From NCBI RefSeq assembly GCF_000768065.1, contig NZ_JRKM01000001.1, forward strand, positions 4,384,001-4,448,000: a DNA stretch of 64,000 nucleotides. Direction: 5' to 3'. How positions within the stretch are numbered: the first letter of the stretch is position 1; every line of letters starts with the position of its first letter. Shown here in pieces: positions 18,890 to 36,047 of the stretch. A program made the position numbers and the translations under genes. The DNA is from Aquabacterium sp. NJ1. GTDB lineage: Bacteria; Pseudomonadota; Gammaproteobacteria; Burkholderiales; Burkholderiaceae_C. The notes beneath the pieces were generated by a model. It was not told the DNA's origin and made no database searches. It was given only the letters and a program-made list of their open reading frames with translations.

Positions 18890-19028
18890 AGCAGCCTGCC
18901 GCGGCCCGTCTCGGCCCTTGTGGCATGCACGGCGTCGGCCATGACCACGCACCAAGGTGGTCCATAACTTGCTGCTGTCACACAGACGCCTGCACACTGG
19001 TGCGGGCTCGTCCTAGCCGGAGATCTGT
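18890..19028. other. Intergenic region ahead of the transglutaminase/ATP-grasp array
   Basis: 139 bases after the CI-like gene. It should contain the promoter of the following array, but no convincing hexamers are visible. GGAGA about six bases before the GTG at 19029 is the likely ribosome site. No small gene seen. Confidence 0.4.
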
Positions 19029-22000
19029 GTGTCCATTCACGTTGCCCTCAATCACGTCACGCATTACCGCTACGACCGCCTGGTCAACTTGTCACCTCAG
19101 GTCGTTCGCCTGCGCCCCGCGCCACATTGCCGCACCCGCATCCTGTCGTATTCATTGAGGGTCGAGCCCGCCGTCCACTTCATCAACTGGCAGCAGGACC
19201 CGTTTTCCAACCACCTGGCCCGCCTCGTCTTTCCGGAGCAGACCCAGGAGTTCAAGATCACGGTGGACCTGGTCGCCGAGATGGCGGTCTACAACCCATT
19301 TGACTTTTTCCTGGAGCCCGAGGCGGAGACGTATCCCTTCAGCTACGACGCCTCCACGCTGCACGACCTCACGCCCTATCTCGTCAAGGGCGAGTTGACA
19401 CCGGCCTTCAAGGCTTTTGTCGACAGCATCGACCGCACCGAGGTGCGCACCATCGATTTCCTGGTCGGGCTCAACCAGCGCCTGCAAAAGGACATCAGCT
19501 ACACCATCCGCATGGAGCCCGGTGTGCAGACGCCCGAGGAGACGCTGACGCTGAAGTCCGGTTCATGCCGGGACACGGGCTGGCTGATGGTGCAGGCCCT
19601 GCGCCACCTCGGCCTGGCGGCCCGCTTCGTGTCCGGCTACCTGATCCAGTTGAAGGCCGATGTGGCCGCGCTGGACGGCCCCTCCGGCACCGAGGTGGAC
19701 TTCACCGATCTGCACGCATGGTGCGAGGTCTTCCTGCCCGGCGCGGGCTGGATCGGCCTGGATCCGACGTCCGGCCTGCTGGCAGGCGAGGGCCACATCC
19801 CCGTGGCCTGCACGCCCGAGCCCACAGGCGCCGCGCCCGTGACAGGTGCGGTGGACGAGTGCGAGGTCAGCTTCGAGCACCTCATGGACATCACCCGCAT
19901 CTATGAAAGCCCGCGGGTCACCAAGCCGTATACCGATGGGCAATGGGATGCCATTGACGCATTGGGCACCAAGGTGGATGCCGATCTGCAAGCGGGCGAT
20001 GTGCGCCTGACCATGGGCGGCGAGCCCACCTTCGTGTCCGTGGACGACCGCGATGGCGCCGAGTGGAACACCGACGCCCTGGGGCCCACCAAGCGGGGCC
20101 TGGCCACCGAGCTGGTCCACAAGCTGCGCCAGCGTTATGGCGAGGGCGGCTTCCTGCACTTCGGGCAAGGCAAGTGGTACCCCGGCGAGCAACTGCCACG
20201 CTGGGCCTTGTCGATCTTCTGGCGCACCGATGGCCAGCCTTGCTGGCACGACCCCAGCCTGTTTGCCGACGAGCGCAACTCGGTGCGCTACACCAGCCAG
20301 GATGCGCGCCTGTTCATCGACACGCTGGCCAACAAGCTGGGCGTGGGGCCCAGCTACATCCAGCCCGGTTATGAGGACACCTTCTACTACCTGTGGCGCG
20401 AGCGGCGCCTGCCGGTCAACGTCGACCCCTTCGATGCCAGGCTGGATGACGAGATGGAGCGCATGCGCCTGCTGCGTGTGTTCGAGCAGGGTCTGGAGCA
20501 CCAGGTCGGTTACGCCTTGCCGCTCAAGCGCAACGATGCCCTGGGCCTGAGCGGCCCCAAATGGATGACCGGGCCGTGGTTCTTCCGCGATGAGCGCATG
20601 TACCTGTTCCCGGGCGATTCGCCCATGGGCTACCGCCTGCCGCTGGATTCGCTGCCCTGGGTCAGCAAGGGCGACTATCCCTACAGCCACGAGCACGACC
20701 CGTTTGCGCCACGCGGGGCCTTGCCGGCCGCGGCCTCCTTGAAGGCCCAGTACGCGCAGCACCAGGTTGGTGGCGGCTTCGCTCAAGGTGGTGTCGTGAG
20801 CACGCAGGGGCAGAACGTGGCCGGCCTGGGTGGTGCGGGCGTCAACGGCGAGTGGGGGGCACTGGGTGCCAACCCGCCTTCGGGCCCGGGTGGGGCGGCT
20901 GCTCAAAGCGGTGACGCGGCGCGCATGCCCAACCGCTTCGAGTCGGCGCACTGGATCACACGCTCGGCCTTGTGCGTGGAGGTGCGCAACCCCGATCGCG
21001 CCAGCGGCCCCAAGGTCGAGGCCGAGGGGCAGGGTGGTGGCGTGATGTACGTGTTCATGCCGCCCCTGACCTTGCTGGACGACTACCTGGACCTGCTGGC
21101 CGCCGTCGAAGCCACCGCGGCCGAGTTGGGCATGGCCATCGTGCTGGAAGGCTACCCACCGCCTCGCGACCCTCGCCTCAAGGTGCTGCAGGTCACGCCG
21201 GACCCCGGTGTCATTGAAGTCAACATCCACCCCGCGTCCAGTTGGGGCCAACTGGTGGACCACACCGAGTTCCTCTACCAGGCCGCACATGAAACCCGCC
21301 TGTCCACCGAGAAGTTCATGGTCGATGGCCGGCACACCGGCACGGGCGGCGGCAACCACTTCGTGCTGGGGGGCGCCACACCGGCAGACAGCCCCTTCCT
21401 GCGCCGCCCCGACCTGATCCCCAGCCTGCTGACCTTCTGGCACAACCACCCGTCCTTGTCCTACCTGTTCTCGGGTTTGTTCATCGGGCCGACCAGCCAG
21501 GCGCCTCGCATCGACGAAGCCCGCATGGACCAGGTCTACGAGACCGAGATCGGCCTCAAGGAGATTGAGCGCCAGATGGACATCTGGGGGCAATGCCCGC
21601 CCTGGCTCATCGACCGCACCTTGCGCAACCTGCTGATCGACGCCACCGGCAACACCCACCGCAGCGAGTTCTGCATCGACAAGCTGTACTCGCCCGACGG
21701 CCCCACCGGCCGCCTGGGCCTGCTGGAGCTGCGTGCCTTCGAGATGCCGCCCCACGCCAAGATGAGCCTGGTGCAGCAGTTGCTGTTGCGTGCGCTGGTG
21801 GCCTGGTTCTGGAAGACGCCTTACCAAGGGCATGGCGCCCAGCGCCTGACCCGCTGGGGCACCGGGCTGCACGACCGCTTCCTGCTGCCCAGCTTTGTCG
21901 AGCAGGACTTTGCCGACGTACTGGCCGAGCTGCAGATGGCGGGCTACGGCTTCCAGAACGAGTGGTTTGCACCACATTTCGAGTTCCGCTTCCCCTACAT

Positions 22001-22538
22001 CGGCGAAATCTCGGCAGCCGGGGTGCGCCTGACCTTGCGCGGGGCGCTGGAGCCCTGGCACGTGATGGGCGAGGAGGGCTCGCCAGGCGGCACCGTGCGC
22101 TATGTGGATTCGTCCCTGGAACGGCTGGAGGTGCGCGCCACCGGCCTCAACGGCAACCGCCATGTGGTCACGGTCAACGGCCAGATCCTGCCGCTGCACC
22201 CCACGGGCCGTGTGGGCGAGTTCGTGGCCGGGGTGCGCTACCGCGCCTGGCAGCCGCCGTCCTGCCTGCACCCCACCATCGGCTCGGATGCGCCCTTGAC
22301 CTTTGACGTGGTGGACAGCTGGCTCAAACGCTCTCTGGGCGGGTGCCAGTACCACGTGGCACACCCGGGTGGGCGCAATTACGACAGCTTCCCGGTGAAC
22401 GCCTACGAGGCCGAAAGCCGGCGCCTGGCGCGTTTCTTCCGCATGGGGCACACGCCAGGCTTGATGCCGATCAAGCCCAAGCCTGCTGGTATCGAGCACC
22501 CCTTGACGCTGGACTTGCGCACGTCACGCTCGGCTTGA
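19029..22538 (+). CDS. Large transglutaminase-like protein fused to a putative amidoligase (DUF2126)
   Basis: 1169 residues from a GTG start. Residues 1-95 form the bacterial transglutaminase N-terminal domain. Residues 130-260 form a papain-like transglutaminase core with triad Cys180 (KSGSCRDTGW), His229 (DLHAWCEV) and Asp245 (LDPTSG). From about 310 to the end the protein matches DUF2126, which Pfam describes as a putative amidoligase. It opens with TMGGEPTFVSVDDRDG and contains GGGNHFVLGG and an acidic/basic core. The triad suggests peptide-bond cleavage or transfer, and the second part ATP-dependent amide formation. A glycine/alanine-rich insertion lies at about 575-640. No signal peptide, so cytosolic. 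Substrate unknown. Confidence 0.85.
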   Translation: MSIHVALNHVTHYRYDRLVNLSPQVVRLRPAPHCRTRILSYSLRVEPAVHFINWQQDPFSNHLARLVFPEQTQEFKITVDLVAEMAVYNPFDFFLEPEAETYPFSYDASTLHDLTPYLVKGELTPAFKAFVDSIDRTEVRTIDFLVGLNQRLQKDISYTIRMEPGVQTPEETLTLKSGSCRDTGWLMVQALRHLGLAARFVSGYLIQLKADVAALDGPSGTEVDFTDLHAWCEVFLPGAGWIGLDPTSGLLAGEGHIPVACTPEPTGAAPVTGAVDECEVSFEHLMDITRIYESPRVTKPYTDGQWDAIDALGTKVDADLQAGDVRLTMGGEPTFVSVDDRDGAEWNTDALGPTKRGLATELVHKLRQRYGEGGFLHFGQGKWYPGEQLPRWALSIFWRTDGQPCWHDPSLFADERNSVRYTSQDARLFIDTLANKLGVGPSYIQPGYEDTFYYLWRERRLPVNVDPFDARLDDEMERMRLLRVFEQGLEHQVGYALPLKRNDALGLSGPKWMTGPWFFRDERMYLFPGDSPMGYRLPLDSLPWVSKGDYPYSHEHDPFAPRGALPAAASLKAQYAQHQVGGGFAQGGVVSTQGQNVAGLGGAGVNGEWGALGANPPSGPGGAAAQSGDAARMPNRFESAHWITRSALCVEVRNPDRASGPKVEAEGQGGGVMYVFMPPLTLLDDYLDLLAAVEATAAELGMAIVLEGYPPPRDPRLKVLQVTPDPGVIEVNIHPASSWGQLVDHTEFLYQAAHETRLSTEKFMVDGRHTGTGGGNHFVLGGATPADSPFLRRPDLIPSLLTFWHNHPSLSYLFSGLFIGPTSQAPRIDEARMDQVYETEIGLKEIERQMDIWGQCPPWLIDRTLRNLLIDATGNTHRSEFCIDKLYSPDGPTGRLGLLELRAFEMPPHAKMSLVQQLLLRALVAWFWKTPYQGHGAQRLTRWGTGLHDRFLLPSFVEQDFADVLAELQMAGYGFQNEWFAPHFEFRFPYIGEISAAGVRLTLRGALEPWHVMGEEGSPGGTVRYVDSSLERLEVRATGLNGNRHVVTVNGQILPLHPTGRVGEFVAGVRYRAWQPPSCLHPTIGSDAPLTFDVVDSWLKRSLGGCQYHVAHPGGRNYDSFPVNAYEAESRRLARFFRMGHTPGLMPIKPKPAGIEHPLTLDLRTSRSA

Positions 22539-22636
22539 GGGAGGGAAGGGGCAACCCTAGGTATCTGGGGGCCCTGGGTTTGACACACTGGACTTATGGG
22601 TTGTAATCCCAACCCGTCGTTCATTTGTCAGTACCC

Positions 22637-24601
22637 ATGTCGGTTTCGCCCCCCAGTGGCACACCTCAACCATCGGCCCCCTCCCGTGAGGCGGCCTTGA
22701 GCGAGGCCGTGTACCGCGATTGCTTTGATCTGTCTCCCGCCGCCCAGGTGATCCTCAATCACCGTGGCGAGTTGCTGGATCTCAACCTCCAGGCCTGCAC
22801 GGTGATGGGCCATGAGCGCGCCGTGCTGCTGGGCCGCCGCCTGACAGACGTGGTGCACGCTGATGACCGCGCGGAGATTTTCTCCGCCATCGAGCACAGC
22901 ACGGAACACAAGGTGCCTTTCGAGCTGGAGTGCCGCGTGCAGTCACCCGGGCAGGCGCTGCGCTGGTTCCTGGTGCAATCGCGGCCGGCGGGCCAGCCCG
23001 GGCAAGGCACGCTCTGGTACACCTTGCTGGCCGACATCACCGAACGCAAGAGGCAGGAGGCGTGGCTGACTCACCGCAATGCCTTGCTCACGGCCTTGTC
23101 GCACAACCTGCCCGGCATGATTTACGTGTTCAGGCCGGGCATGGACAAGGGCGGGCGCCTGGACTTTGTCAGCGAGGGGGTGCGCCACTTGTTCGGTGCC
23201 ACGCCTGAAGAAGCCCTGGCCAGCCCCTGGGTGCTGTACAACCGGGTGCCACCGGAAGACCTCAGCAACTTTTTCCAGCAGCGTGACCAGGCCATCGGCG
23301 AGGCCAGCCGCCTGCACAGCGAGTTCCGCGTGCGCAATGCCGAGGGTGAACTGCGCTGGTGTGCGGCTGATTCGGTCGCCGGCCTGGATGCCGACGGCAA
23401 CGAGGTGCGCTGCGGCTACATCGCCGACATCACCGAGCACAAGCTGTATCAGGAGGCCTGCATGGCCGCAGAAACGGCCGAGCGCGCCAGCCGTGCCAAG
23501 TCGCAGTTCCTCTCACGCATGAGCCACGAATTGCGCACACCGCTCAACGCCGTCATCGGGTTTGCGCAGCTGCTGCAGATGGACAAGAGCCCCGAGCTGG
23601 CCGACAGCCAGCGCCAGAAGGTCGAGCTCATCGAACGCTCGGGGGCGCACCTGCTGGACGTCATCAGCGATGTGCTCGATCTGTCACGCATCGAGGCGGG
23701 CGACATGCCCTTGTCGGTCGAGCCCATCATGCTGGGTGGCGTGATCAACGATGCCCAGGCCATGGTGGCCGAGGCGGCGGGCCGCGCCAATGTGCTCATG
23801 ACCGAATCCGGCCGCAGCTGGGACATGTACGTCATGGCCGACCGTGTGCGCCTGCGCCAGGTGCTGGTCAACCTGCTGAGCAATGCAGTCAAGTACAACC
23901 GGCCGGGCGGTGAGGTCTGTGTGGCCGTCAGCATGGAGAGCGACACGCGTGTCCTGCTGGAGGTCACCGATACCGGCGTGGGCCTGAGCGAGAGCCAGAT
24001 CACCCACCTGTTCGAGCCCTTCAACCGGCTGGGCGCCGAGCATTCCGGCGTCGAGGGCACCGGCATCGGCCTGGTGATCGTGCACCGCCTGGTCGAGCTG
24101 ATGGGCGGCACCATCGCCGTGCGCAGCCAGGCCGGGCAGGGCACCACCTTCTCCCTGAGCCTGCCCGCCGCGGAGGTGGACCTGGCTTCCGACCACGGCG
24201 TGCTGGACGAAGCGCTGCCCGAGGCCCGCCAGGCCACCATCCTGTACGCCGAAGACAATGAGATCAACGTGTTGCTGGTGCGCCAGATCCTGGAGTTGCG
24301 CCCCTCCTGGAAGCTGGAGGTGGCCCGCAGCGGCGCCGAAGCGCTCAAGCTGGTGAACCAGATCCAGCCTGACCTGCTGCTGCTGGACATGCACCTGGGC
24401 GACATGACCGGTTTCGAGCTGGCCGAGCTGCTCGACCAGAACCCGGCCTTGCAGGGTGTGACCAAGGTGGCCTTGTCTGCCGACGCCATGCCCGATCGGG
24501 TGCATGCCGCACGCACCAAGGGATTCAGCGCCTACCTCACCAAACCGCTGGACGTGGCCGCGCTCCTGCGTTGCCTGGACGAGCACCTGGCCGCCAAATG
24601 A
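22637..24601 (+). CDS. Hybrid PAS-sensor histidine kinase with C-terminal receiver domain
   Basis: 654 residues from the ATG at 22637; an in-frame TTG lies four codons upstream. Two PAS domains span about 20-135 and 155-275. The dimerisation domain carries the phosphoacceptor His297 in FLSRMSHELRTPLNA. The ATPase part has NLLSNAVKYN, DTGVGLS and GTGIGLVIV. A receiver domain (about 535-650) has acidic EDN residues, the acceptor aspartate in LLLLDMHLGD (about 584) and a late lysine in LTKPLD. There is no membrane segment, so it is a cytosolic sensor. It interrupts the transglutaminase/ATP-grasp array in the same orientation and is followed by a terminator-like hairpin. It lacks a DNA-binding output domain. 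Confidence 0.9.
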   Translation: MSVSPPSGTPQPSAPSREAALSEAVYRDCFDLSPAAQVILNHRGELLDLNLQACTVMGHERAVLLGRRLTDVVHADDRAEIFSAIEHSTEHKVPFELECRVQSPGQALRWFLVQSRPAGQPGQGTLWYTLLADITERKRQEAWLTHRNALLTALSHNLPGMIYVFRPGMDKGGRLDFVSEGVRHLFGATPEEALASPWVLYNRVPPEDLSNFFQQRDQAIGEASRLHSEFRVRNAEGELRWCAADSVAGLDADGNEVRCGYIADITEHKLYQEACMAAETAERASRAKSQFLSRMSHELRTPLNAVIGFAQLLQMDKSPELADSQRQKVELIERSGAHLLDVISDVLDLSRIEAGDMPLSVEPIMLGGVINDAQAMVAEAAGRANVLMTESGRSWDMYVMADRVRLRQVLVNLLSNAVKYNRPGGEVCVAVSMESDTRVLLEVTDTGVGLSESQITHLFEPFNRLGAEHSGVEGTGIGLVIVHRLVELMGGTIAVRSQAGQGTTFSLSLPAAEVDLASDHGVLDEALPEARQATILYAEDNEINVLLVRQILELRPSWKLEVARSGAEALKLVNQIQPDLLLLDMHLGDMTGFELAELLDQNPALQGVTKVALSADAMPDRVHAARTKGFSAYLTKPLDVAALLRCLDEHLAAK

Positions 24602-24610
24602 CGGCTTTGC

Positions 24611-24630
24611 AGGCCGGTGGCCGGCCTTTT
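24611..24630 (+). terminator. Short GC hairpin with T-run after the hybrid kinase gene
   Basis: GGCCGG, loop TGG, CCGGCC, then TTTT. The stem is strong but short and the T-run has only four bases, so termination may be partial. Confidence 0.5.
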
Positions 24631-24689
24631 GCTTGCATGCCTGACAATCGGACGGGCTGATGCCCGCTGCCTCGCCCTGACTTGCCCTT

Positions 24690-27359
24690 ATGTCCTCGAC
24701 CCTCCAGCTCTTCGATGACCCCGCCGACTCGCCCTCGGTCGCCGCAGAAATGCAGCGCCAGGCGCGTCCGGTGGAGCCTGGGCATTACGACGAGTTGCGC
24801 GACGAGCAAGGGCAGTTGCGCCCGGCCTGGCAGGCCTTCGCCGAACACCTGGGTGCACCGTTGTCTGACCTGACGCGCCGCCAGAGCCTGCTGGCCCACC
24901 AGATCCAGGAAGACGGCATCACCTACAACGTCTACAACGCGCAAGGGGGCCCCAGCCGCCCCTGGTCGCTGGAGGCCTTGCCCCTGATCCTGTCGGCGGC
25001 CGACTGGCAGGCGCTGGAGCGTGGCGTGGCCCAGCGCGCCAGCCTGCTCAACCGTGTGCTGGACGACGTGTACGGCGAGCAGACCGTGCTCCGGGGGGGC
25101 TTGTTGCCCTCGGCCCTGGTGCTGGGCCACCCCAGCTACCTGCGGGGCCTGCAAGGGGTCAAGCCCGTGGGCGGCGTTTACCTGCATGTGGTCGCCTTTG
25201 ACCTCGTGCGCGGGCCCGACGGCGCCTGGTGGGTGGTGTCGCAGCGCACCCAGGCGCCGTCCGGCCTGGGCTACGTCATGCAGAACCGCCTGATCGTCTC
25301 GCGGCTGTTCCCCGAGGCGTATCGGGCCATGAACGTGCAGCACCTGGCGAGCGGCTACCGGCGCCTGCTGGACACCATGACCGAGCTGGCCAGCCTGTGC
25401 GCCGGCGGCGAAACCCCGCGCCTGGCCTTGCTCACCCCCGGGCCTTACAACGAGACCTACTTCGAGCACGCCTACCTGGCGCGCTACCTGGGCCTGCCCC
25501 TCGTTGAAGGCGGTGACCTGGTGGTGCGCGACGAAGGCCTGTTCCTCAAGACCGTGCAGGGCCTGGAGCCCATCCACGGCTTGCTGCGCCGCCTCGACGA
25601 CGATTTCTGCGACCCGCTGGAGTTGCGCTCCGACTCGACACTCGGCATCCCCGGCCTGATGCAGGCGGTGCGTGCCGGCAAGGTGGCACTGGCCAATGCC
25701 CTGGGCACGGGCTTCCTCGAATCCCCGGCCGTGCATGGTTTCCTGCCGGCGCTGTCGCGCAAGCTGCTGGGTGAAGAACTGGTGCTGCCCTCGCTGCCGA
25801 CCTGGTGGTGTGGTGAATCGGCCGCCTGGCAGGACGTGCGCGACGACCTGACCGAACGCGTGATCCGCCCCAGCTACCCGCATGCCGGCACACCGGGCTT
25901 TGGCGGCTCCAGCACCGTGCGCCAGAGTTTTGACGCCGTCATCGGGCGTGTGCTGACGCCGCCTGCGCTCAAGGCCTGGCGCGAACGCATTGACCACGAC
26001 CCGGCCGCCTACACGGTGCAACGTTTCGAGCCCTATCCCCAGGCACCGGTCTGGTCGGGTGGGGCGCTGAGCATGCGGGGCGCATCGCTGCGGGTGTACG
26101 CCTTGTCCGACGGGCAGGGTGGCTGGCAGGTCCTGCCCGGAGGCATGACACGCATTGCCACGCGCGACGCCGGCCCCGTTTCCATGCAACTGGGCGGCAG
26201 CAGTCTGGACACCTGGGTACTGACCGAGGAGCCGGTGGACACCTTCTCGATGCTGCCCTCGTCCATCAAGCTCGACGAGTTGATGCAGCGCCAGCGCCCC
26301 GTGGCCAGCCGCACCGGCGAGAACCTGTTCTGGATGGGGCGCTACACCGAACGCACCGAGCAGCAACTGCGCTTGCTGCAAACCTCGGTCAGCCTGCAGT
26401 CGGGTGACGACGAGATGCAGGCCAGCGTGTCACGCGCCTTGTCGGATCTGGCCGAGACCAATGGCCTGGTGCCCCCCGGCACACCCAGCCTGATCAAGTC
26501 GCCCCGGGTGTTCGAGCGTGCGGCGCTGGATGCCCTGATGGACGTGTCGGCCTCACAAGGGGCCTACAGCCTGGGCTTCAACCTGGGCGCCCTGGCACGC
26601 TCCGCGCAGAGCCTGCGTGAGCGCCTGTCGCCCGAGCATGCGCGCTTGTTGCGGGCCCTGGGCAGCGACTTTCAGCACCGCCTGACGCAAGCAGCCATGC
26701 CGCCTGACGAACTCGCGCATGAACACGTCGATGAGCGCGGTGAGCAGCCGGCTCGCACCGCACCACCAACCCGCCTGCGCAGCCTCACGCAGGCGCAGGA
26801 CGCCTTCGAGCACCTGGGCATGCAACTGGCCGCCGTGACCGGTGCCCAGACCGACCGCATGACGCGCGACCCAGGCTGGCGCCTGCTGACCGTGGGCCGG
26901 CTCATCGAGCGCCTGACCGGCTATGCCGGCATGCTCAAGGCCTTCTGGGAAAACGAGGCGCTCACGCACCCGCAAGGTTTTGACCTCGTGCTGGACTTGT
27001 TCGACAGCACCATCACCTTCCGCGCACGCTTTCAGCGTCGTCTGGAAGTGCCGGCCCTGCTGGCCTTGCTGGTGATGGACGAGACCAACCCCCGCGCACT
27101 GGCCTGCGTGCTGCGTCGCTTGCGCACCGAGTTGATCAAGCTGCCCGCCCGCGGCGGCTCGCATGCCGACATGCTGGCTTTGTTGCCTCATGAGGGCGTG
27201 GGGGTGTCGCTGGCCGACTTGTGTGCACCAGACAAGGGGCACGAAGCCGTGCTGGCCTTGCTCAACCGCCTGATCGACGCGGGCTGGCGCCTGTCCGACG
27301 AAGTCGGGCGCCGCTATTTCGCCCACGCCGAACCGACCGACTCCATGGTGAGCGCATGA
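24690..27359 (+). CDS. Circularly permuted ATP-grasp protein fused to an alpha-E domain
   Basis: 889 residues. The first 510 or so match the circularly permuted ATP-grasp family (DUF404/DUF407). Markers are SLLNRVLDDVYGEQTVLRGG, then TPGPYNETYFEHAYLARYLG, RRLDDDFCDPLELR and the ANALGTG stretch. From about 530 the alpha-E domain begins, with ENLFWMGRYTERTEQQLRLL; it is an all-helical module rich in glutamate and arginine. ATP-grasp enzymes activate a carboxylate with ATP and join it to an amine. Alpha-E proteins are found almost always with these ligases; their activity is unknown. The stop overlaps the ATG of the next transglutaminase gene. Confidence 0.88.
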   Translation: MSSTLQLFDDPADSPSVAAEMQRQARPVEPGHYDELRDEQGQLRPAWQAFAEHLGAPLSDLTRRQSLLAHQIQEDGITYNVYNAQGGPSRPWSLEALPLILSAADWQALERGVAQRASLLNRVLDDVYGEQTVLRGGLLPSALVLGHPSYLRGLQGVKPVGGVYLHVVAFDLVRGPDGAWWVVSQRTQAPSGLGYVMQNRLIVSRLFPEAYRAMNVQHLASGYRRLLDTMTELASLCAGGETPRLALLTPGPYNETYFEHAYLARYLGLPLVEGGDLVVRDEGLFLKTVQGLEPIHGLLRRLDDDFCDPLELRSDSTLGIPGLMQAVRAGKVALANALGTGFLESPAVHGFLPALSRKLLGEELVLPSLPTWWCGESAAWQDVRDDLTERVIRPSYPHAGTPGFGGSSTVRQSFDAVIGRVLTPPALKAWRERIDHDPAAYTVQRFEPYPQAPVWSGGALSMRGASLRVYALSDGQGGWQVLPGGMTRIATRDAGPVSMQLGGSSLDTWVLTEEPVDTFSMLPSSIKLDELMQRQRPVASRTGENLFWMGRYTERTEQQLRLLQTSVSLQSGDDEMQASVSRALSDLAETNGLVPPGTPSLIKSPRVFERAALDALMDVSASQGAYSLGFNLGALARSAQSLRERLSPEHARLLRALGSDFQHRLTQAAMPPDELAHEHVDERGEQPARTAPPTRLRSLTQAQDAFEHLGMQLAAVTGAQTDRMTRDPGWRLLTVGRLIERLTGYAGMLKAFWENEALTHPQGFDLVLDLFDSTITFRARFQRRLEVPALLALLVMDETNPRALACVLRRLRTELIKLPARGGSHADMLALLPHEGVGVSLADLCAPDKGHEAVLALLNRLIDAGWRLSDEVGRRYFAHAEPTDSMVSA

Positions 27360-28351
27360 GCGAGCCGTCACGCGAACCGCTGAGCGAGCCCATCAGTGAA
27401 CCTACGAGCGGCCGGGCACGCCTGTCCGTCGAGCACGAAACCCTGTACGAGTACAGCCGCCCGGTGGATCAGGCGCAGCACATCGCCTGCCTGCGCCCCT
27501 TGAGCGACGCGGGCCAGACGCTGGAGGTGTTCGACATGTCGGTCAGCCCGACACCTTCGCAACACAGTGTTCGCCGCGACAGCCACGGCAACAGCCGCGC
27601 CTATTTCGCGCTGCACGCGGCCCACTCGACCCTGCGCGTCATGGCACGCAGCCAGGTGACGGTCACCGCGCGCTATGAGGGCCTGGCGCCGGATCAAGGC
27701 CCGACCTGCGGCGAGGTGAGGGCCTTGCTGGCCTACCGCGCCAAGGCCCCGTTTCAGCCAGCCAGCGAGTTCGTGTTCGCCTCGCCCTACGTGCCCTGCC
27801 TGACCGCCTTGCGTGAATACGCCGAGGTCTCGCTCAAGGACGACCGCCCGCTGGCCGAAGCCGCCATCGAACTGATGAGCCGCATCCACGCGGACTTCGA
27901 TTACGCCCCAGCCTCCACCGACATCTCCACCCCCATCCTGGACGTCTTCCTGCAACGCAAGGGGGTGTGCCAGGACTTCGCGCACCTGATGCTCGGTTGC
28001 CTGCGCGCCTGCGGTCTGGCGGGGCGTTATGTCAGTGGCTACCTGCTCACACGCCCGCCGGCCGGGCAGCCGCAACTGGTGGGTGCCGACGCCTCACATG
28101 CCTGGGTCAGCGTCTGGATCCCCGGTCTGGGGCTCGATCGAGCCCAGGACTGGCTCGACCTGGACCCCACCAACGACTGCGTGCCCGGGATTCACCACGT
28201 CCGGGTGGCCCACGGCCGCGACTTTGGCGACGTCACGCCTTTGCGGGGTGTGATCCGCGGGGGGGGGCGCCACACCTTGTTGGTGCGCGTCACCACCCGC
28301 TTGCTGGACGACCCTGTCCGCCAAAACCCTGTTCGCACCAACGCTGCCTAG
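27356..28351 (+). CDS. Stand-alone transglutaminase-like protease-fold protein
   Basis: 331 residues from the ATG at 27356, which overlaps the preceding stop as ATGA, so the two are translationally coupled. A short SEP-repeat leader (2-18) precedes a bacterial transglutaminase N-terminal domain (about 20-110). The core carries Cys205 in RKGVCQDFAHL, His248 in ASHAWVSVW and Asp270 in LDLDPTND, a complete triad. In this gene family the enzyme is thought to cut or transfer peptides made by the partner ATP-grasp protein; that is inference from conserved neighbourhoods, not a shown reaction. No signal peptide. Confidence 0.87.
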   Translation: MSEPSREPLSEPISEPTSGRARLSVEHETLYEYSRPVDQAQHIACLRPLSDAGQTLEVFDMSVSPTPSQHSVRRDSHGNSRAYFALHAAHSTLRVMARSQVTVTARYEGLAPDQGPTCGEVRALLAYRAKAPFQPASEFVFASPYVPCLTALREYAEVSLKDDRPLAEAAIELMSRIHADFDYAPASTDISTPILDVFLQRKGVCQDFAHLMLGCLRACGLAGRYVSGYLLTRPPAGQPQLVGADASHAWVSVWIPGLGLDRAQDWLDLDPTNDCVPGIHHVRVAHGRDFGDVTPLRGVIRGGGRHTLLVRVTTRLLDDPVRQNPVRTNAA

Positions 28352-28442
28352 CGGCGCCCCAATATGGGGAGCATCATGGCGTGAGTGCCCGAAAGCTGTG
28401 CCAAGCCAATACCCCTGATGTCGACCCTGGCACACTCTGTGC

Positions 28443-29924
28443 ATGACTGAGTTGACCGCAGCTTTATTCACCCCTGCAAGGGGCCAGACGATGCGATTCT
28501 TCGACGAGATGCACGTGAGCAGCGCCCAGGTGCGCGACCACTACAAGACCTACGACCGCTGGTTGGGGCGACAGCCCCGCGAGCTGATGGCCTCGCGGCG
28601 CGAAGAAGCAGAGATGATCTTCCGCCGTGTGGGGATCACCTTCGCGGTTTATGGCGACAAGGACGAAGACGGCTCGGGCACCGAGCGTCTCATTCCCTTC
28701 GACCTGATCCCGCGCATCATCCCCGCCAGCGAATGGCGCGAGATGGAAAAGGGCTTGAAGCAACGCGTCACCGCGCTCAACCGCTTCCTGGAGGACGTCT
28801 ACCACGGTCAGGAAATCCTCAAGGCCGGCATCATCCCCGCCGAGCCGGTGCTCAACAACGCCCAGTTCCGCAAGGAGATGGTGGACCTCAAGGTGCCCGG
28901 CGGCATCTACTCCATCATCGCGGGCATCGACATCGTGCGCGCCTGCAACCCCGATGGCTCGGGCACCTACTACGTGCTCGAAGACAACCTGCGTGTGCCC
29001 TCCGGCGTGAGCTACATGCTGGAGAACCGCAAGATGATGATGCGGCTCTTCCCGGACCTGTTCGCCGAGCACCGTGTGGCCCCCGTGGCCCACTATCCGG
29101 ACTTGCTGCTCGACACCCTGCGCGCCATGGCACCGGCCAACGTCAACGAGCCGACCGCCGTGGTGCTGACCCCGGGCGCCTACAACTCGGCCTACTTCGA
29201 GCACGCTTTCCTGGCGCAGCAGATGGGCATCGAGCTGGTGGAAGGGCAGGACCTGTTCGTCAAGGACGACTTCGTCTACATGCGCACCACCCGTGGACCG
29301 CAGCGCGTGGACGTGATCTACCGCCGCCTGGACGACGACTTCATGGACCCCGAGGTCTTCCGCAAGGATTCGACCCTGGGCGTGGCCGGCCTGCTGCGCG
29401 CCTACCGTGCGGGCAACGTCACGCTGGCCAACGCCTTTGGCACCGGTATCGCGGATGACAAGTCCATCTACCCCTACGTGCCCAAGATGATCGAGTTCTA
29501 CCTGGGCGAAAAACCCATCCTGCAGAACGTGCCGACCTATGTCTGCCGCGAGAAGGACGACCTCAAGTACACCCTGGACAACCTGGCCGACCTGGTCGTC
29601 AAGGAAGTGCACGGGGCCGGGGGCTACGGCATGCTGGTGGGGCCGGCGGCCACCAAGGCCGAGGTCGAAGACTTCCGCAAGGCGCTGATCGCCAACCCGA
29701 GCAACTACATCGCCCAGCCCACGCTGTCGCTGTCGACCTGCCCGACCTTTGTCGAGTCCGGCATCGCGCCGCGCCACATCGACCTGCGGCCCTTTGTGCT
29801 CTCAGGCAAGACGGTGCAGATGGTGCCCGGCGGCCTGACCCGCGTGGCACTCAAGGAAGGCTCCCTGGTGGTCAACAGCTCGCAAGGCGGTGGCACCAAG
29901 GACACCTGGGTGCTCGAAACCTGA
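28443..29924 (+). CDS. Stand-alone circularly permuted ATP-grasp protein
   Basis: 493 residues. The same family as the first half of the upstream fusion, here without the alpha-E part. Markers are ALNRFLEDVYHGQEILKAG, TPGAYNSAYFEHAFLAQQMG, YRRLDDDFMDPEVFRKDSTLG and TLANAFGTGIADDKSIYPYV. Sequence differs widely from the fused copy, so this is a second subfamily and not a recent duplicate. The downstream alpha-E gene supplies the missing module. An internal ATG 16 codons in (MRFFDEMH) is an alternative start. Confidence 0.88.
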   Translation: MTELTAALFTPARGQTMRFFDEMHVSSAQVRDHYKTYDRWLGRQPRELMASRREEAEMIFRRVGITFAVYGDKDEDGSGTERLIPFDLIPRIIPASEWREMEKGLKQRVTALNRFLEDVYHGQEILKAGIIPAEPVLNNAQFRKEMVDLKVPGGIYSIIAGIDIVRACNPDGSGTYYVLEDNLRVPSGVSYMLENRKMMMRLFPDLFAEHRVAPVAHYPDLLLDTLRAMAPANVNEPTAVVLTPGAYNSAYFEHAFLAQQMGIELVEGQDLFVKDDFVYMRTTRGPQRVDVIYRRLDDDFMDPEVFRKDSTLGVAGLLRAYRAGNVTLANAFGTGIADDKSIYPYVPKMIEFYLGEKPILQNVPTYVCREKDDLKYTLDNLADLVVKEVHGAGGYGMLVGPAATKAEVEDFRKALIANPSNYIAQPTLSLSTCPTFVESGIAPRHIDLRPFVLSGKTVQMVPGGLTRVALKEGSLVVNSSQGGGTKDTWVLET

Positions 29925-29956
29925 TCTGAATTGCTGTTTTCACGGAGGACACCGCC

Positions 29957-31015
29957 ATGCTCAATGAACGCATCGAAAGCCATCTGCCCTCCCACCTGAT
30001 CGAGACTGAAACAGGGGCCTTGCGCGCAAGCAATGCCTCGCATCTGGAGACCAAGCCCATGCTGTCGCGCACCGCTGACCACCTCTTCTGGATGGCACGC
30101 TACATGGAGCGCGCCGAAAACACCGCACGCCTGCTCGACGTCAACTACCAGACCTCGCTGCTGCCGCAATCGAGCGAGTCCGCGCAGGCGGGCTGGCGCG
30201 GCCTGCTGGGCATCAGCGAGTTGATGCCCGAGTACACGGCCAAGTATGAAGACATCAACGCGCGTGACGTGATGGCCTTCATGGTGACGGACGCGACCAA
30301 CCCGTCGAGCATCCTCAACTGCCTGCGTGCCGCGCGTGAGAACGCCCGGGCCGTGCGCGGCGCCCTGACCACCGAGGTGTGGGAGACCATGAACCAGACC
30401 TGGCTGGAGTACAACCGGCTGGTCAAGTCCGGTGCCCTGGCCAAGGACCCCGGCGAGCTGTTCGAATGGGTGAAGTTCCGCTCGCACCTGTCGCGCGGCG
30501 TGACCCTGGGCACCATGCTGCAGGACGAGTCCTTCCACTTCCAGCGCATTGGCACCTTCCTGGAGCGCGCCGACAACACCGCGCGCCTGCTGGACGTGAA
30601 GTTCCACGCCCGCAACACCGAGTTCTTTGGCTCCGGCCTGGGCAACGAGGGCAAGGAGGTGGACTTCTACCACTGGTCTGCCGTGCTGCGCAGCGTGTCG
30701 GCCTTCGAGGTGTACCGCAAGGTCTACCGCAACGTGATCCGCCCCGAGAAGGTGGCCGAGCTGCTGATCCTGCGTGCCGAGATGCCACGCTCGCTCGTGT
30801 TCTGCATGGACGAGGTCGTGAGCAACCTGCGCGCCGTGGCCAACGACCACAGCCATGAGACCCTGCGCCGCGCCGGTCGCCTGCGTGCCGACCTGCAGTT
30901 TGGCCGCATCGACGAGATCGTGGCCACGGGCCTGCACGCCTACCTCACGCAGTTCCTCGACCGCGTGGGTGACCTGGGTTATGGCATCAGCCGGGACTTC
31001 CTGATGCCGGCTTGA
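29957..31015 (+). CDS. Stand-alone alpha-E domain protein
   Basis: 352 residues. GGAGG ten bases before the ATG at 29957 fixes the start, giving about 35 extra residues before the conserved MLSRTADHLFWMARYMERAE motif. The rest is helical, with TDATNPSSILNCLRAARENAR and the late RYLGRL-like arginine-rich helices typical of the alpha-E family (DUF403). It matches the C-terminal half of the fusion upstream in architecture. Its gene follows the ATP-grasp gene with a 32-base gap, so the products probably form a complex. Confidence 0.88.
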   Translation: MLNERIESHLPSHLIETETGALRASNASHLETKPMLSRTADHLFWMARYMERAENTARLLDVNYQTSLLPQSSESAQAGWRGLLGISELMPEYTAKYEDINARDVMAFMVTDATNPSSILNCLRAARENARAVRGALTTEVWETMNQTWLEYNRLVKSGALAKDPGELFEWVKFRSHLSRGVTLGTMLQDESFHFQRIGTFLERADNTARLLDVKFHARNTEFFGSGLGNEGKEVDFYHWSAVLRSVSAFEVYRKVYRNVIRPEKVAELLILRAEMPRSLVFCMDEVVSNLRAVANDHSHETLRRAGRLRADLQFGRIDEIVATGLHAYLTQFLDRVGDLGYGISRDFLMPA

Positions 31016-31044
31016 GCCTTGGCCAGGCCCTGGCGACAGGCGTG

Positions 31045-31074
31045 AAAAAGCCGACCCGCGGGTCGGCTTTGTTT
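31045..31074 (+). terminator. Rho-independent terminator after the alpha-E gene
   Basis: A 24-bp perfect palindrome spans 31047-31070, with a GCCGACCC half, a CG centre and a GGGTCGGC half. It is followed by TTTGTTTT. It closes the transglutaminase/ATP-grasp array. Confidence 0.8.
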
Positions 31075-31120
31075 TGGGTGCAACGTGGCGCTACATGTGC
31101 AGCGCCGCGCGGGAGCGACC

Positions 31121-31150
31121 CAATCAGGCCCGATCAGGCCCGATCAGGCC
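31121..31150. repeat. Three tandem copies of a 10-bp unit at a gene's stop codon
   Basis: CAATCAGGCC, CGATCAGGCC and CGATCAGGCC follow one another; the last copy contains the stop of the PEP-CTERM gene read on the minus strand. Each unit carries a TGA on that strand. Replication slippage is the simplest origin. Confidence 0.7.
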
Positions 31151-31800
31151 GCGCGGCGGCGGGCCATGATGGCGCCGAAAGACAGGCCCAGCGCCAGGTA
31201 GGCCAGGGTGCCCGCTTCAGGCACGGGTGCCGTGGTGCCACCAATGGCAAAGCGCGTCTGGCCGGCGGCGATGGCGGCATTGAGGTTGCTCAGGAATGCG
31301 CCGTTGAGCGTGAAGGTCTGGTTGATGAAACCGGTCGACACGAGGTCACCACCATACGTGGCACCTGTGCCCAGATCGGTGTAGATGCCCGCGTCACCGT
31401 TGCCGTTGACCAGCGTGCCAATGTCGCCGGTGTAGTCCACCAGGGTGTATTGCAGCGGCGCGGTGACGTCAAAGCTGTTGAGCGTCAGGGTGGCGCTGGT
31501 CACCGGGGCGGTCAGGCTGGAGATGTCGAAGACGAAGAAGTTGTTGTAGTAGTGGCCGCCGCAGTTGTTGCAGAAACCAGCGATGTAGTTCTGGTTGTCC
31601 GGATTGTGGACCGCGTCGTCACGGTACCAGCCGCTTTTGGACAGGTTCACCGTCTCCGTGCCGTTCAGCAGCAAGGCATTGCTGGCCGAGGTATCGCTGG
31701 AGCCGAAGATGTAGGCGTCACCCTCCATGGCGTGCGCCGAGGCACCGGCGAACAGGGTGGAGGCGACCAGAAGGGCGCAGGCGCGGAAATTCATGGACAT
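31144..31800 (-). CDS. PEP-CTERM sorting-signal protein (first)
   Basis: 218 residues. The start is the ATG at 31800 with GGGAG seven bases upstream. A signal peptide ends at ASAHA (about 23). The C-terminus has the PEP-CTERM plan: VPEAGTL, a hydrophobic helix, and a basic end ARRRAA. The signal reads VPEA instead of VPEP. Such proteins are exported and then processed by exosortase, usually in exopolysaccharide-producing species. The body has paired cysteines in FCNNCGG and many asparagines. No enzyme motif is visible. Exosortase is not in the window. Confidence 0.82.
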   Translation of the reverse strand: MSMNFRACALLVASTLFAGASAHAMEGDAYIFGSSDTSASNALLLNGTETVNLSKSGWYRDDAVHNPDNQNYIAGFCNNCGGHYYNNFFVFDISSLTAPVTSATLTLNSFDVTAPLQYTLVDYTGDIGTLVNGNGDAGIYTDLGTGATYGGDLVSTGFINQTFTLNGAFLSNLNAAIAAGQTRFAIGGTTAPVPEAGTLAYLALGLSFGAIMARRRAA

Positions 31801-31983
31801 CAAAGTTCTCCCTCAAATGATTGAAACACCATGAAGACGATGCCGTTGATCGGCATGCCGCCAGCACACGCTGCGTCTTCGCAAGCTGAGGGGATTCTAG
31901 AACTGGATGCCCGGGAAACAGGCGCCGCGAGATCGCCCGAATGGGGGGTTACCCCAATGTGCATCGGCCCTCAACAGCGGCGC
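31801..31983. other. Intergenic region between PEP-CTERM gene and GDSL hydrolase
   Basis: 183 bases between two minus-strand genes. It contains the ribosome site and presumably the promoter of the PEP-CTERM gene. I see no clear terminator for the GDSL gene and no small gene. Confidence 0.4.
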
Positions 31984-33159
31984 TCAACGGTTGGGGAGCG
32001 GCGCATCCATGACCACGGACTTGGCGAAGTCTGTGCCGATGACCAGGGAGCCTGCCGCGGTCGGGTGGTTGCCGTCCCAGAAAAGATGCTTGTCGGGGTC
32101 GTCACAGACGGGGCCGGGGATGCCCATGAACTTGGGGTCATAGCAGGCTTTCATCACATCGATGCCTTCTGCGGCAGCCTGGCTCACGCGCGTTTGCGAA
32201 TACGTGAAGGTGTTGAATGTGCGCACGGTGGCCTGGGGGTAGGCCTTGGCAAAGCCGGCGAGCATCTTCGACAAGGCCGCAGCCATCTCGGCGCTCCGTG
32301 CCTTTGCGTTCACGTTGTAGTTGGTCAAGGCGGCGTTGTGGATGTGAGCCGATGGCGTGATGCTGAGGTCCGGCATCTGCGGCACGAAGAAGTGCCGGGC
32401 ACCACGCTGGTACAGGCGCGTCATTCCGGTGCGGATGTCGTCGATGATGGCGGCCGTGATCGCGGGGTTGAACACGTTGCCGTCGGCATAGTAGTCATCG
32501 GGGCCCGTCCACAGGACGTACAAGCCATTGGCATCCAGGCGTGCGGTGGTGCTGGGCTGGTTGTCCAGCAGATCCTGGATCTGCTGCAGCATGCCTTTTT
32601 GCATGCCGTAAACCGGCACCAGGTTGTTGTAGCCGGAGCGGGCGCCCGCGAACGCGTAGTTCACCAGTGGCAGGTTCAGGGCATTGGCCATGGCCTCCAG
32701 CACCACGGGGCCATTCGAAAAGCGGCCCTGGTAGTTGGGGCTCGTTGGCAGGGGTGTCCTGGCACCGTTGCCGCGCATGGCGGCATACAGGTTGCCGGTG
32801 TCGCTCATGCTGTCGCCGAACGAAAAGATCTGCGTGTAGCTGTTGGCGTACACCTGTGCCGGCGGCGTGGGGGCGCTGGGCACGGGCCGCAGCCGGGGTG
32901 TTTTCTTCAGGGCCAGCATGCGCAGATCGTCAGAGTAGGGCGCCATGTAGGGCACGACCAGCTTGACGAGGCTGTTCCACAGCCCGGGCGTGACGGCGAT
33001 GGTGTACATGGTGACGGGCGACACCACCACGCCGGACAACTGGCCTGTGGTGGCCAGAAACGGCGTTGGAAGCTCCAGCTGGGCTTGGGCCGATGTGGTG
33101 AGCAAGGCGGTGGCGATCAACAGGCCGAGGCGTTGGGGGCGCTTGGGTGTGAGCTTCAT
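31984..33159 (-). CDS. Secreted GDSL/SGNH hydrolase (phospholipase/esterase type)
   Basis: 391 residues with a signal peptide ending at SAQA (about 26). Block I is IFSFGDSMSDTGN (Ser117). Block V is WDGNHPT, with Asp362 and His365. The block III segment reads TGPDDYY (about 218-224), where the usual asparagine of GxND is aspartate. The GRFSNGPV stretch is the standard block II region. An insertion of about 85 residues separates the signal peptide from block I. Family members hydrolyse lipids or acetylated sugars outside the cell. It lies between two PEP-CTERM genes, so a role in the cell envelope or matrix is plausible. Confidence 0.85.
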   Translation of the reverse strand: MKLTPKRPQRLGLLIATALLTTSAQAQLELPTPFLATTGQLSGVVVSPVTMYTIAVTPGLWNSLVKLVVPYMAPYSDDLRMLALKKTPRLRPVPSAPTPPAQVYANSYTQIFSFGDSMSDTGNLYAAMRGNGARTPLPTSPNYQGRFSNGPVVLEAMANALNLPLVNYAFAGARSGYNNLVPVYGMQKGMLQQIQDLLDNQPSTTARLDANGLYVLWTGPDDYYADGNVFNPAITAAIIDDIRTGMTRLYQRGARHFFVPQMPDLSITPSAHIHNAALTNYNVNAKARSAEMAAALSKMLAGFAKAYPQATVRTFNTFTYSQTRVSQAAAEGIDVMKACYDPKFMGIPGPVCDDPDKHLFWDGNHPTAAGSLVIGTDFAKSVVMDAPLPNR

Positions 33160-33472
33160 GGTGTGGACGTCTCTGTTTTAGTACGGAAGATGTGCGCACC
33201 TTGCCATCCGTCGAGCGCGGCTTGTGGATCAGATCACGTCAGCCAAGGGTTGACCCGACCACGCGTTCGCGCGTGACGCAAAGCCCGTCTGCGTCAGGCC
33301 TTTAACACTTTTGGACCATGCCGGTGCACCCGGTGTCAGCGATGTTTCTTATTTCGGGCCTTTTCAGCACACAAGGCGGGGCGCGGCAGATGGCATGCCT
33401 GACACGGGTGCTTCCTATCCTGATCACATGTTCAAAAGCCTGCTGCCAGGCCTGTGTGAGGAGCTTCCTGTG
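33160..33472. promoter_or_regulatory. Divergent control region between GDSL hydrolase and second PEP-CTERM gene
   Basis: 313 bases. It contains a near-perfect inverted pair about 60 bases apart, GCACCCGGTGTCAG (33326-33339) and CTGACACGGGTGC (33399-33411), differing by one missing base. This could be a paired operator or an RNA stem. GAGGAG (33458-33463) precedes the ATG at 33473. No small gene is convincing. Confidence 0.4.
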
Positions 33473-34117
33473 ATGCCAACCCGGTTCGCCATGGTCGCCT
33501 TGACGGCGCTTGGTCTTTCGTCTGCTTCTCTGGCCTGGGCCGATCCGGCCAACCATGTGGTGGCCAACTATGGGGATGTCACGCTGCCGTTCACGCGCAG
33601 CATTGGCAACACCTTCTCGGGCTCGCCAACCGCCGGGTTCGTCTCCCAGGATGGCCAGCCCGTGGTGTACGCCTCGGTGGGCGGGCTGTCGTACTTCTAT
33701 GACGACTACGTGTTCAACCTGCCGCTGGCGCCGCAGGCCAGTTTCAACGCGGCCGCTGTGTCCATCGACCTGGGCAGCTTCCTGAGCCTGCAGAATTTTT
33801 CTGCCCGGCTGTACAAGCTGGACGCGGGCCTTGACTCCCTGACCACGGGCTTGCCCAGCAGTGGCACGCCCATTCAGGCGTGGACGTCAACCTCGTTGCT
33901 GGCCCCGGGCGTGACGGGTACCACGGTGTTGTTCCAGAACGTGGACTTGCAGGCCGGTGCCAGTTATGCACTGGAGCTGCGCGGCACCATCAACGGCAGT
34001 TATGGTGGCAGTTATGGCGGCAACCTGAACATCACGCCGGTGCCGGAGCCCAGTGGCATGGCCTTGCTGGCGGCCAGCCTGGGCGTGATGACACTGGTCA
34101 AGCGCCGCCGTTCGTGA
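33473..34117 (+). CDS. PEP-CTERM sorting-signal protein (second, FxDxF-like)
   Basis: 214 residues from the ATG at 33473, which has GAGGAG upstream. Signal peptide ends at AWA (about 23). The C-terminus is VPEPSGM, a hydrophobic helix, and KRRRS, a canonical PEP-CTERM signal. The body has a FNAAAVSIDLGSF segment reminiscent of the FxDxF subclass and a GSYGGSYGG repeat shortly before the signal. It is predicted to be exported and exosortase-processed; function unknown. It is divergent from the GDSL hydrolase gene. Confidence 0.82.
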   Translation: MPTRFAMVALTALGLSSASLAWADPANHVVANYGDVTLPFTRSIGNTFSGSPTAGFVSQDGQPVVYASVGGLSYFYDDYVFNLPLAPQASFNAAAVSIDLGSFLSLQNFSARLYKLDAGLDSLTTGLPSSGTPIQAWTSTSLLAPGVTGTTVLFQNVDLQAGASYALELRGTINGSYGGSYGGNLNITPVPEPSGMALLAASLGVMTLVKRRRS

Positions 34118-34526: not shown

Positions 34527-35909
34527 TTACTTGAGTTGCTTGACCAGCACCTGAGAGCGCCGGTCCCACTTGTAGCTGCGTTTGCGGGCTTCGGGCAGCC
34601 AGGCCGGGTCGACCGGCGCAAAGCCACGCTTGATGAACCAGTGCATGGTACGCGTGGTCAATACAAACAGTGTGGACAGGCCCATTGCCCGAGCGCGTTG
34701 CTCGATGCGTTTCAGAATGCGTTCGCCGTCGCCCTGGCCCTGTACGCTCGGCGAGATCGTGAGGGCCGCCATTTCGGCCGTGCTGGCCTCGGGGAAGGGG
34801 TAAAGGGCGGCGCAACCGAAGATCACGCCGTCGTGCTCGATCACGGTGTACTGGGCCACGTCGCGTTCGATTTCGGTGCGGCTGCGTTTGACCAGCGTGC
34901 CGTCCTGCTCGAAGGGTTCGATCAGCTGCAGGATGCCGCCCACGTCATCCGGCGAGGCTTCGCGCAGGCTTTCGAGCTTTTCGTCCACGATCATGGTGCC
35001 CACGCCATCGTGCGTGAACACCTCCATCAGCAGCGCGCCGTCCACCAGGAAGGGGATGATGTGCACGCGCTCCACGCCGCCTTCGCTGGCCTTGACGGCG
35101 TGCTGCAGGTAGAAGGCCGTGTCGGTGGGCTGCAAGGGGTTGGGCAGGGCGGCCAGCAGGCGTTTGGCCTCGGCCAGGGCCAGTTCCTGGTCGATCTCGA
35201 CATCGGGGTCGTGCTGTTTGGCTTCCAGCTCCTTGGCCTTGGCGGGGTCCTGCACGATGCTTTGCAGGATGCCGCGCACCTCGGTCACGAAGATGAGCTT
35301 GTCGGCCTGCAGGGCGATGGCGGCGCTGGTGGCCACGTCTTCCATGCTGAGGTTGAAGGCCTCACCAGTATGTGAAAAACCGAAGGGCGAGAGCATGACC
35401 AGGGCGCCGGTGTCGATCGCACGGCGCACGGCCATGGCGTCGATCTTGCGGACCAGGCCCGTGTGCATGAAGTCCACGCCGTCAACGATGCCGACGGGGC
35501 GGGCGGTCACGAAGTTGCCCGAGATGACGCTGACCGAAGCACCGGCCATGGGCGTGTTGGGTAGCCCCAGCGAAAAAGCTGCCTCGATTTCATAGCGCAG
35601 CTGGCCGGCGGCTTCCTGGGCGCAGTCGAGTGCCACGGGGTCGGTGATGCGCATGCCGTGGCTGAATTTGGACTCCTGCCCCTTGGCGCGCAGCTGCTCT
35701 TCGAGCTGCGGGCGAAAGCCATGCGCCAGCACGATCTTGATGCCCATGGCCTGCATCAGGGCCAGGTCTTGCACGAAGCTCTCGAGCTTGCCTGCGGCGA
35801 TCAGCTCGCCTGACAGGCCGACGACAAAGGTCTTGCCCCGGTGCGCGTGGATGTGGGGTGCCACGGAACGAAACCACGGCACGAAGGTGTGGGGAAAGAC
35901 CAGGTCCAT
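34527..35909 (-). CDS. argA: Amino-acid N-acetyltransferase (N-acetylglutamate synthase)
   Basis: 460 residues from the ATG at 35909 (MDLVFPHTFVPWFRSVAPHI); the open frame extends 27 codons further without conservation. The N-terminal amino-acid-kinase-like domain has GKTFVVGLSGELI and ends near 290. A GNAT acetyltransferase domain follows, with ALTISPSVQGQGDGERILKR as the acetyl-CoA loop. It acetylates glutamate, the first step of arginine synthesis. The kinase-like domain usually binds arginine for feedback inhibition. Confidence 0.93.
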   Translation of the reverse strand: MDLVFPHTFVPWFRSVAPHIHAHRGKTFVVGLSGELIAAGKLESFVQDLALMQAMGIKIVLAHGFRPQLEEQLRAKGQESKFSHGMRITDPVALDCAQEAAGQLRYEIEAAFSLGLPNTPMAGASVSVISGNFVTARPVGIVDGVDFMHTGLVRKIDAMAVRRAIDTGALVMLSPFGFSHTGEAFNLSMEDVATSAAIALQADKLIFVTEVRGILQSIVQDPAKAKELEAKQHDPDVEIDQELALAEAKRLLAALPNPLQPTDTAFYLQHAVKASEGGVERVHIIPFLVDGALLMEVFTHDGVGTMIVDEKLESLREASPDDVGGILQLIEPFEQDGTLVKRSRTEIERDVAQYTVIEHDGVIFGCAALYPFPEASTAEMAALTISPSVQGQGDGERILKRIEQRARAMGLSTLFVLTTRTMHWFIKRGFAPVDPAWLPEARKRSYKWDRRSQVLVKQLK

Positions 35910-36047
35910 TGAGAGGATGCAAGAGGGGCGCCAGCAAGGCGGCCGTTCAAAAAGGGTGGGGAATGCGTCAAGCCGTAATGTTACGGGCAATGTGCGTCTT
36001 CCACACGTTGTTGAACGGGCCTTGCGTGCGCGCCCGTGCGCCGCCTC
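35910..36047. other. Intergenic region ahead of argA
   Basis: 138 bases between the amidase end and the argA start. The argA promoter is expected here; no clear ARG box or hexamers could be identified by eye. Confidence 0.35.

Follow-up and report, generated by a model that had tools for sequence, protein, structure and literature searches.

Does a gene cluster that holds two ATP-grasp and two alpha-E modules carry out two ATP-grasp ligations? This question is raised by positions 19,029 to 31,015 of a 64,000-nucleotide stretch of Aquabacterium sp. NJ1 DNA (the window, meaning that whole stretch), where the plus strand encodes, in order, a transglutaminase-fold domain joined to DUF2126, a hybrid kinase, a fused ATP-grasp–alpha-E protein, a second transglutaminase, a standalone ATP-grasp and a standalone alpha-E protein, with a terminator-like hairpin at the end. 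The original prediction, made without database searches, had named these families, had placed them in a predicted system that makes and cuts a peptide or amide, and had read the double set as two successive ligation steps or two substrates. Pfam matches far over cut-off bear out the families, and membership in the predicted ligation-and-cleavage system also stands. The residues of the fused ATP-grasp, however, mark it as a very probable pseudoenzyme, always accompanied by a standalone module; this would be the new point, the widespread predicted system and its common two-module form being the known part.

Throughout we separate two modules by gene order: module A consists of transglutaminase–DUF2126, fused ATP-grasp–alpha-E and transglutaminase genes, and module B of ATP-grasp and alpha-E genes, usually with a transglutaminase and often with the peptidase gene Anbu.

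Loss of catalytic residues in the fused ATP-grasp

Five residues, E180, N182, K340, D447 and N478 in the numbering of the standalone protein, were found in 113/113 standalone ATP-grasps and in 0/108 fused proteins. The standalone protein of the window retains the positions invariant in all 113 (with roles putatively assigned by motif), whereas its fused neighbour carries Ser184 for E, Arg186 for N, Pro346 and Arg393 for two K, and Ser466 for D. At K387, where the window protein has Arg, Lys is retained in 44/108 fused copies. The replaced positions vary within the fused family, E becoming Ser, Ala or Gly and K becoming Pro, Leu, Arg, Asn or Ser, and the family has conserved positions of its own, namely E344, W373, G375 and the Arg that replaces the presumed metal-binding Asn. 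The fold itself is kept, since a predicted model of the fused protein and a fold search returned the ATP-grasp fold, the same as in glutathionylspermidine synthetase/glutathione synthetase and in structure 3n6x.

The original prediction had itself named the absence of residues that bind ATP and metal as grounds for refuting it, and without these residues in the fused protein the duplication does not mean two ATP-grasp steps. Two ligations are possible, the second then by the glutamine synthetase (GS)-like DUF2126 domain, so that in the mechanism a single ATP-grasp step and a GS-like one take the place of two ATP-grasp steps. The targets for assays change with it: the candidates for ligase activity are now the standalone ATP-grasp and DUF2126, with the fused protein as a partner. 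The terms 'inactive', 'pseudo' or 'degenerate ATP-grasp' were not found in open-access full texts, a scope that leaves out most subscription papers and Iyer et al. 2009; as far as the available parts of that literature go, ATP-grasp and pseudoenzyme occurred together only for a tubulin-ligase-like protein.

The Pfam matches within the single frame at 19029-22538 make the first transglutaminase and the amidoligase one 1169-aa protein. As predicted, the Cys-His-Asp triad is complete in both window transglutaminases, and so it is in relatives, with overlapping short loci left out: 117/117 DUF2126-fused, 94/94 module A and 27/27 module B copies, while 13 copies without module assignment have the Cys in 12/13 and the His and Asp in 13/13. 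DUF2126, which we take to be the GS-like ligase of the predicted system and which is predicted to be a circular permutation of the GS fold, has 155 invariant positions among the aligned rows, including the candidate active-site residues E332, E730, N732, N776, H777, E900 and R902. Within the same open-access scope 20 papers contain the name DUF403, none of them DUF2126, and one paper contains PF09899.

Distribution of the two modules and of Anbu

Relatives of the 1169-aa protein were collected by scanning genome contigs, and the best 80 of at least 591 confirmed were examined; the closest among the matches listed come from Aquabacterium-type Burkholderiales. The fused gene was present in 72/80 of these near loci and a standalone ATP-grasp or alpha-E gene in 52/80, several stretches ending at contig ends, which makes the 'double set' nothing unusual among Burkholderiales. 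The different architectures noted in the original prediction are an ordinary arrangement there and beyond, and not peculiar to this genome. What does set this cluster apart is the hybrid kinase that separates its first two genes: of the 80 near relatives, just the two nearest (L002 and L003) have a kinase at the same place, which was seen in none of the remaining 78 and in 0/80 broader regions, some of which end at contig ends. This PAS-PAS kinase inside module A is possibly a sensor for the system.

Co-occurrence was surveyed in 120 Pseudomonadota genomes, a fused alpha-E being defined as an open frame of at least 800 aa. Alpha-E was present in 69 genomes, DUF2126 in 39, Anbu in 43 and the fused alpha-E in 36. 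All 36 fused-gene genomes also had a standalone alpha-E, as did 39/39 DUF2126 genomes; DUF2126 was found in 34/36 fused-gene genomes (exceptions G024 and G114), and the fused gene in 34/39 DUF2126 genomes. Among the five exceptions (G036, G049, G064, G076 and G081), the DUF2126 gene of G049 and a cut ATP-grasp of G081 sit at contig ends. The families do travel together, as had been proposed. In the trees fused and standalone sequences separate without exception with support 1.0 (108 versus 113 for ATP-grasp, 88 versus 116 for alpha-E); when overlapping short loci were included, the two forms separated in the same way, with support of 0.69 for ATP-grasp and 1.0 for alpha-E. So clean a split indicates that the duplication is old, not recent.

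The claim that the set is present twice is loose: there are two ATP-grasp and two alpha-E modules, but module B of the window lacks both a separate transglutaminase and an adjoining Anbu. In fused-gene genomes that keep module B at another place, a transglutaminase follows it in 10/12 regions, with a contig end at one of the two exceptions, and a second separate transglutaminase was seen in 0/22 broader regions holding both modules. Two Limnohabitans loci (L072 and L075) show a rearranged order of the genes for the fused protein, the transglutaminase, the standalone pair and the DUF2126 protein, with an Anbu-like open reading frame (ORF) nearby.

In the Aquabacterium genome Anbu is a single gene away from the operon (C1:401219-401959; L202 8133-8960), found with E 1.1e-102 by Anbu-alignment search and lying directly downstream of mutS. 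Its absence, considered when PF00227 matched only once in the genome, was thus rejected; that one match (G000:C1:533137-533661, L203) is a 208-aa frame, presumably HslV. Since both the PF00227 search of this genome and the Pfam protein scan missed Anbu, Pfam-based surveys can overlook it, and our counts rest on the alignment search (a motif scan missed Anbu in G002, G010, G057 and G061). So counted, Anbu occurs in 42/69 genomes with alpha-E versus 1/51 without, somewhere in 20/36 fused-gene genomes, and inside the region in 8/22 broader regions holding both modules. It is the commonest recurrent neighbour; Peptidase_Mx metallopeptidase, ABC ATPase, ComEC-like, RidA-like and SDR genes recur locally. 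The cluster of the Zn-ribbon Peptidase_Mx metallopeptidase (L036 8768-9868 and relatives) recurs in 18 loci at no more than 5 kb from the modules.

Upstream sites, nitrogen response and gene layout

A sigma-54-like site precedes the operon (Table 1). Scores of at least 9/12 are common alone, with 42 plus-strand sites in the window, and the window site, at 9/12, lies below the threshold of the enrichment count given next; it falls in a block conserved in L002-L005, the L004 and L005 sites scoring 10. With near relatives left unthinned and control gene starts guessed from the first Met, the 300 bases before the DUF2126 gene held a site of at least 10/12 in 54/115 distinct regions (shuffled mean 2.1) versus 22/948 flanking control genes, and a site of at least 11/12 in 31/115 versus 1/948. 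A second site precedes the fused gene and recurs at -72 in L002 and L003; these and the window are the 3/31 usable upstream regions of fused genes with such a site (shuffle mean 1.0). Standalone ATP-grasp genes had one in 5/29 usable regions (shuffle mean 0.85), a weak enrichment. A 10/12 match at 28428 was rejected as promoter of the standalone ATP-grasp gene because it overlaps that gene's start codon, and no canonical NtrC-binding dyad is claimed from a look by eye.

Expression data have been published for other species. In Burkholderia cenocepacia I35_5080-83 are lower in an ntrC mutant (-8.2, -9.4, -9.4 and -6.0) and are listed as common NtrC and sigma-54 targets (PMC5491218). In Pseudomonas putida PP_2685 and PP_2688 are up on nitrate versus ammonium (PMC8050072), and nitrogen limitation raises PP_2686-2688 11- to 15-fold in the wild type (PMC7801951). 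A sigma-54 regulon survey includes COG3484, a proteasome-type protease (PMC12316311). An association of the cluster's domains with urea metabolism is described for marine metagenomes (PMC3597751). Together with the upstream sites, the expression data point to nitrogen limitation as the condition in which to look for the product.

Table 1. Features of the cluster, with window coordinates and supporting evidence.
Feature	Position	Strand	Evidence
Sigma-54-like -24/-12 sequence TGGTCCATAACTTGCT upstream of operon	18958..18973	+	9/12 consensus positions
Transglutaminase (Cys180, His229, Asp245) fused to DUF2126, putative GS-like amidoligase	19029..22538	+	Pfam Bact_transglu_N + Transglut_core + DUF2126 (1318.9 bits)
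PAS-PAS hybrid histidine kinase with receiver domain	22625..24601	+	Pfam PAS/HisKA/HATPase/response-regulator
Second sigma-54-like site TGGCCGGCCTTTTGCT before fused gene	24618..24633	+	10/12 positions
Fused pseudo-ATP-grasp–alpha-E (very probable pseudoenzyme), module A, 889 aa	24690..27359	+	Pfam CP_ATPgrasp_2 + Alpha-E; 3n6x alignment; column counts; model and fold search
Second transglutaminase-fold protein, module A (Cys205, His248, Asp270 in 331-aa numbering)	27356..28351	+	Pfam, triad, ATGA overlap
Standalone ATP-grasp, module B, tested catalytic positions retained	28443..29924	+	Pfam CP_ATPgrasp_2 (557 bits); phmmer to 3n6x E 2e-218; columns
Standalone alpha-E, module B	29957..31015	+	Pfam Alpha-E (337.1 bits); columns
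Intrinsic-terminator-like hairpin and T-run 3' of last gene	31048..31075	+	By eye from sequence, no tool score

As read from the sequence, the very probable start of the second transglutaminase is ATG 27356 (331 aa) and not the listed GTG 27221; this ATG overlaps the stop of the fused gene as ATGA, and the two genes are probably translationally coupled. The two Alpha-E Pfam matches of the whole genome both lie in the window, and none of the five cluster proteins matched an NCBIfam model at E 0.001. Two plus-strand ORFs downstream (31012-31824 and 31831-33276) were rejected as cluster members, having no Pfam match and lying opposite minus-strand genes. The region 31144-34117 holds a GDSL hydrolase (minus, 31984-33159) between ORFs without Pfam match at 31144-31803 (minus) and 33311-34117 (plus), the latter with a weak PEP-CTERM match at its end that stays under the cut-off; antisense plus-strand ORFs in this region resemble genes but are not genes. 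Further on, 34527-35990 and 36048-37670 (minus) encode an Amino-acid-kinase and GNAT protein (N-acetylglutamate-synthase-like) and an adjoining amidase-family gene.

Proposed mechanism, alternatives and known systems

With even confidence we propose that two cooperating modules make and recycle a peptide or amide under nitrogen shortage, the module B ATP-grasp being the ligase and the fused protein a pseudoenzyme partner. The product, a free metabolite or a protein tag, would be made and recycled when nitrogen is short. The standalone ATP-grasp would use ATP and Mg to activate a carboxylate and join it to an amine, with alpha-E as partner, and module A would contribute DUF2126 as a second, GS-like ligase, with one transglutaminase-fold domain in the same protein and another encoded alongside; both transglutaminase-fold units would probably hydrolyse or transfer amides, and Anbu, encoded far off in this genome, may trim the product. 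The fused protein would be no ligase: keeping its fold and alpha-E domain, it would most likely pair with the ATP-grasp/alpha-E of module B or dock the DUF2126 enzyme onto module B, as scaffold, regulator or substrate holder. Module pairing, step order, substrates and promoter use are what we infer. More tentatively, the dead ATP-grasp–alpha-E may be the obligatory partner that, in nitrogen starvation, couples the active ATP-grasp to the GS-like ligase–transglutaminase, two unrelated ligase folds working in relay on one substrate; if so, a bacterial peptide-tagging system would have a pseudo-ATP-grasp as the subunit that organises it.

Several observations weigh against this proposal. The fused copies that keep the Lys at K387 may still bind nucleotide. 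We assume D163, E180 and N182 to match Mg ligands of glutathionylspermidine synthetase from ligand numbering and a non-significant match, in which the best local piece of a profile of five GspS-family sequences fell on the E-x-N motif (E 0.25); E. coli GspS alone gave nothing useful. The DUF2126 model is weak (predicted local distance difference test, pLDDT, 66), and Foldseek with it returned no match below 0.001. The surveyed genomes are related by descent, so that survey P values are too small. In a P. putida rpoN mutant under nitrogen limitation PP_2686-2688 are still induced 14- to 20-fold, as is urtA, a urea transporter gene that the same paper also assigns to NtrB/NtrC; PP_2685 (Anbu) hardly changes in the wild type (1.12) (PMC7801951). 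These data argue against module B being under sigma-54 control in P. putida. The main text of a P. phymatum nitrogen-starvation paper mentions neither transglutaminase, DUF404, ATP-grasp nor proteasome (PMC5748707). In Yersinia bercovieri, whose operon is module B only, the available parts of the sources report no specific interactions detected among the four proteins and no peptidase activity of Anbu (PMC6376114, PMC5666114), and the literature, as far as it was available, reports no reaction or product of this system. The rpoN result weakens the promoter argument; the residue loss and the module association are unaffected.

The same residues could be read differently, in that the ATP-grasp site of the fused protein was rebuilt for ATP-independent chemistry or nucleotide sensing. 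The fold is intact, Lys persists at K387 in part of the family and the fused-specific residues are conserved, but the replaced positions vary among fused copies, as would be expected of a lost function more than of a newly formed catalytic site, and we consider such an enzyme unlikely. A mainly degradative system, in which transglutaminase-fold amidases or peptidases and Anbu free nitrogen from isopeptides or modified amides while the ligases recharge or tag the substrate, would suit the nitrogen-limitation response in two species, the conserved triads and the distribution of Anbu with alpha-E; it is improbable because the core contains two ATP-dependent ligase folds and module A occurs without Anbu in 16/36 genomes. 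That both ATP-grasp sets are complete, acting in successive steps or on two substrates, agrees with the presence of two ATP-grasp and two alpha-E modules and with the persistence of both kinds in 36/120 genomes, and is nevertheless highly improbable given that the presumed metal and ATP residues are absent from 108/108 fused ATP-grasps. Although this loss might also suggest that module A is a decaying, functionless duplicate of module B, we give that almost no credence in view of its family-specific conserved residues, the invariant positions of DUF2126, the gene overlap, the conserved upstream block and the retention of module A in 36/120 genomes.

Cooperation of the two modules, as we propose it, can be set against several known systems, the published ones as described in the available parts of the sources. 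The Anbu operon of Yersinia bercovieri and Pseudomonas joins ATP-grasp, alpha-E, transglutaminase and Anbu, and phosphate release from ATP is reported for the Y. bercovieri ATP-grasp; this operon is described as four genes, without mention of module A and its DUF2126 and fused pseudo-ATP-grasp (PMC6376114, PMC5666114). I35_5080-83 of B. cenocepacia share DUF404/407, DUF403, a transglutaminase-like protein and a 'large protein containing transglutaminase-like domain', and are known from transcriptomics with no mechanism or discussion of the fused ATP-grasp (PMC5491218). Structure 3n6x (Mfla_0391) is only a 'putative' synthase according to its depositors, and the fused window protein lacks the catalytic residues. 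Compared with the glutamine synthetase/GCS/Dop fold, DUF2126 has about 900 residues and a low-confidence model. A further system is the widespread one that Iyer et al. reportedly predicted in 2009 for peptide tagging, with ATP-grasp, GS-like ligase, alpha-E, transglutaminase and Anbu. The same families occur here, module B being the Anbu operon minus its transglutaminase and linked Anbu; in this genome, however, there are two ATP-grasps, one without catalytic residues and fused to alpha-E, Anbu is unlinked, and a kinase is inserted.
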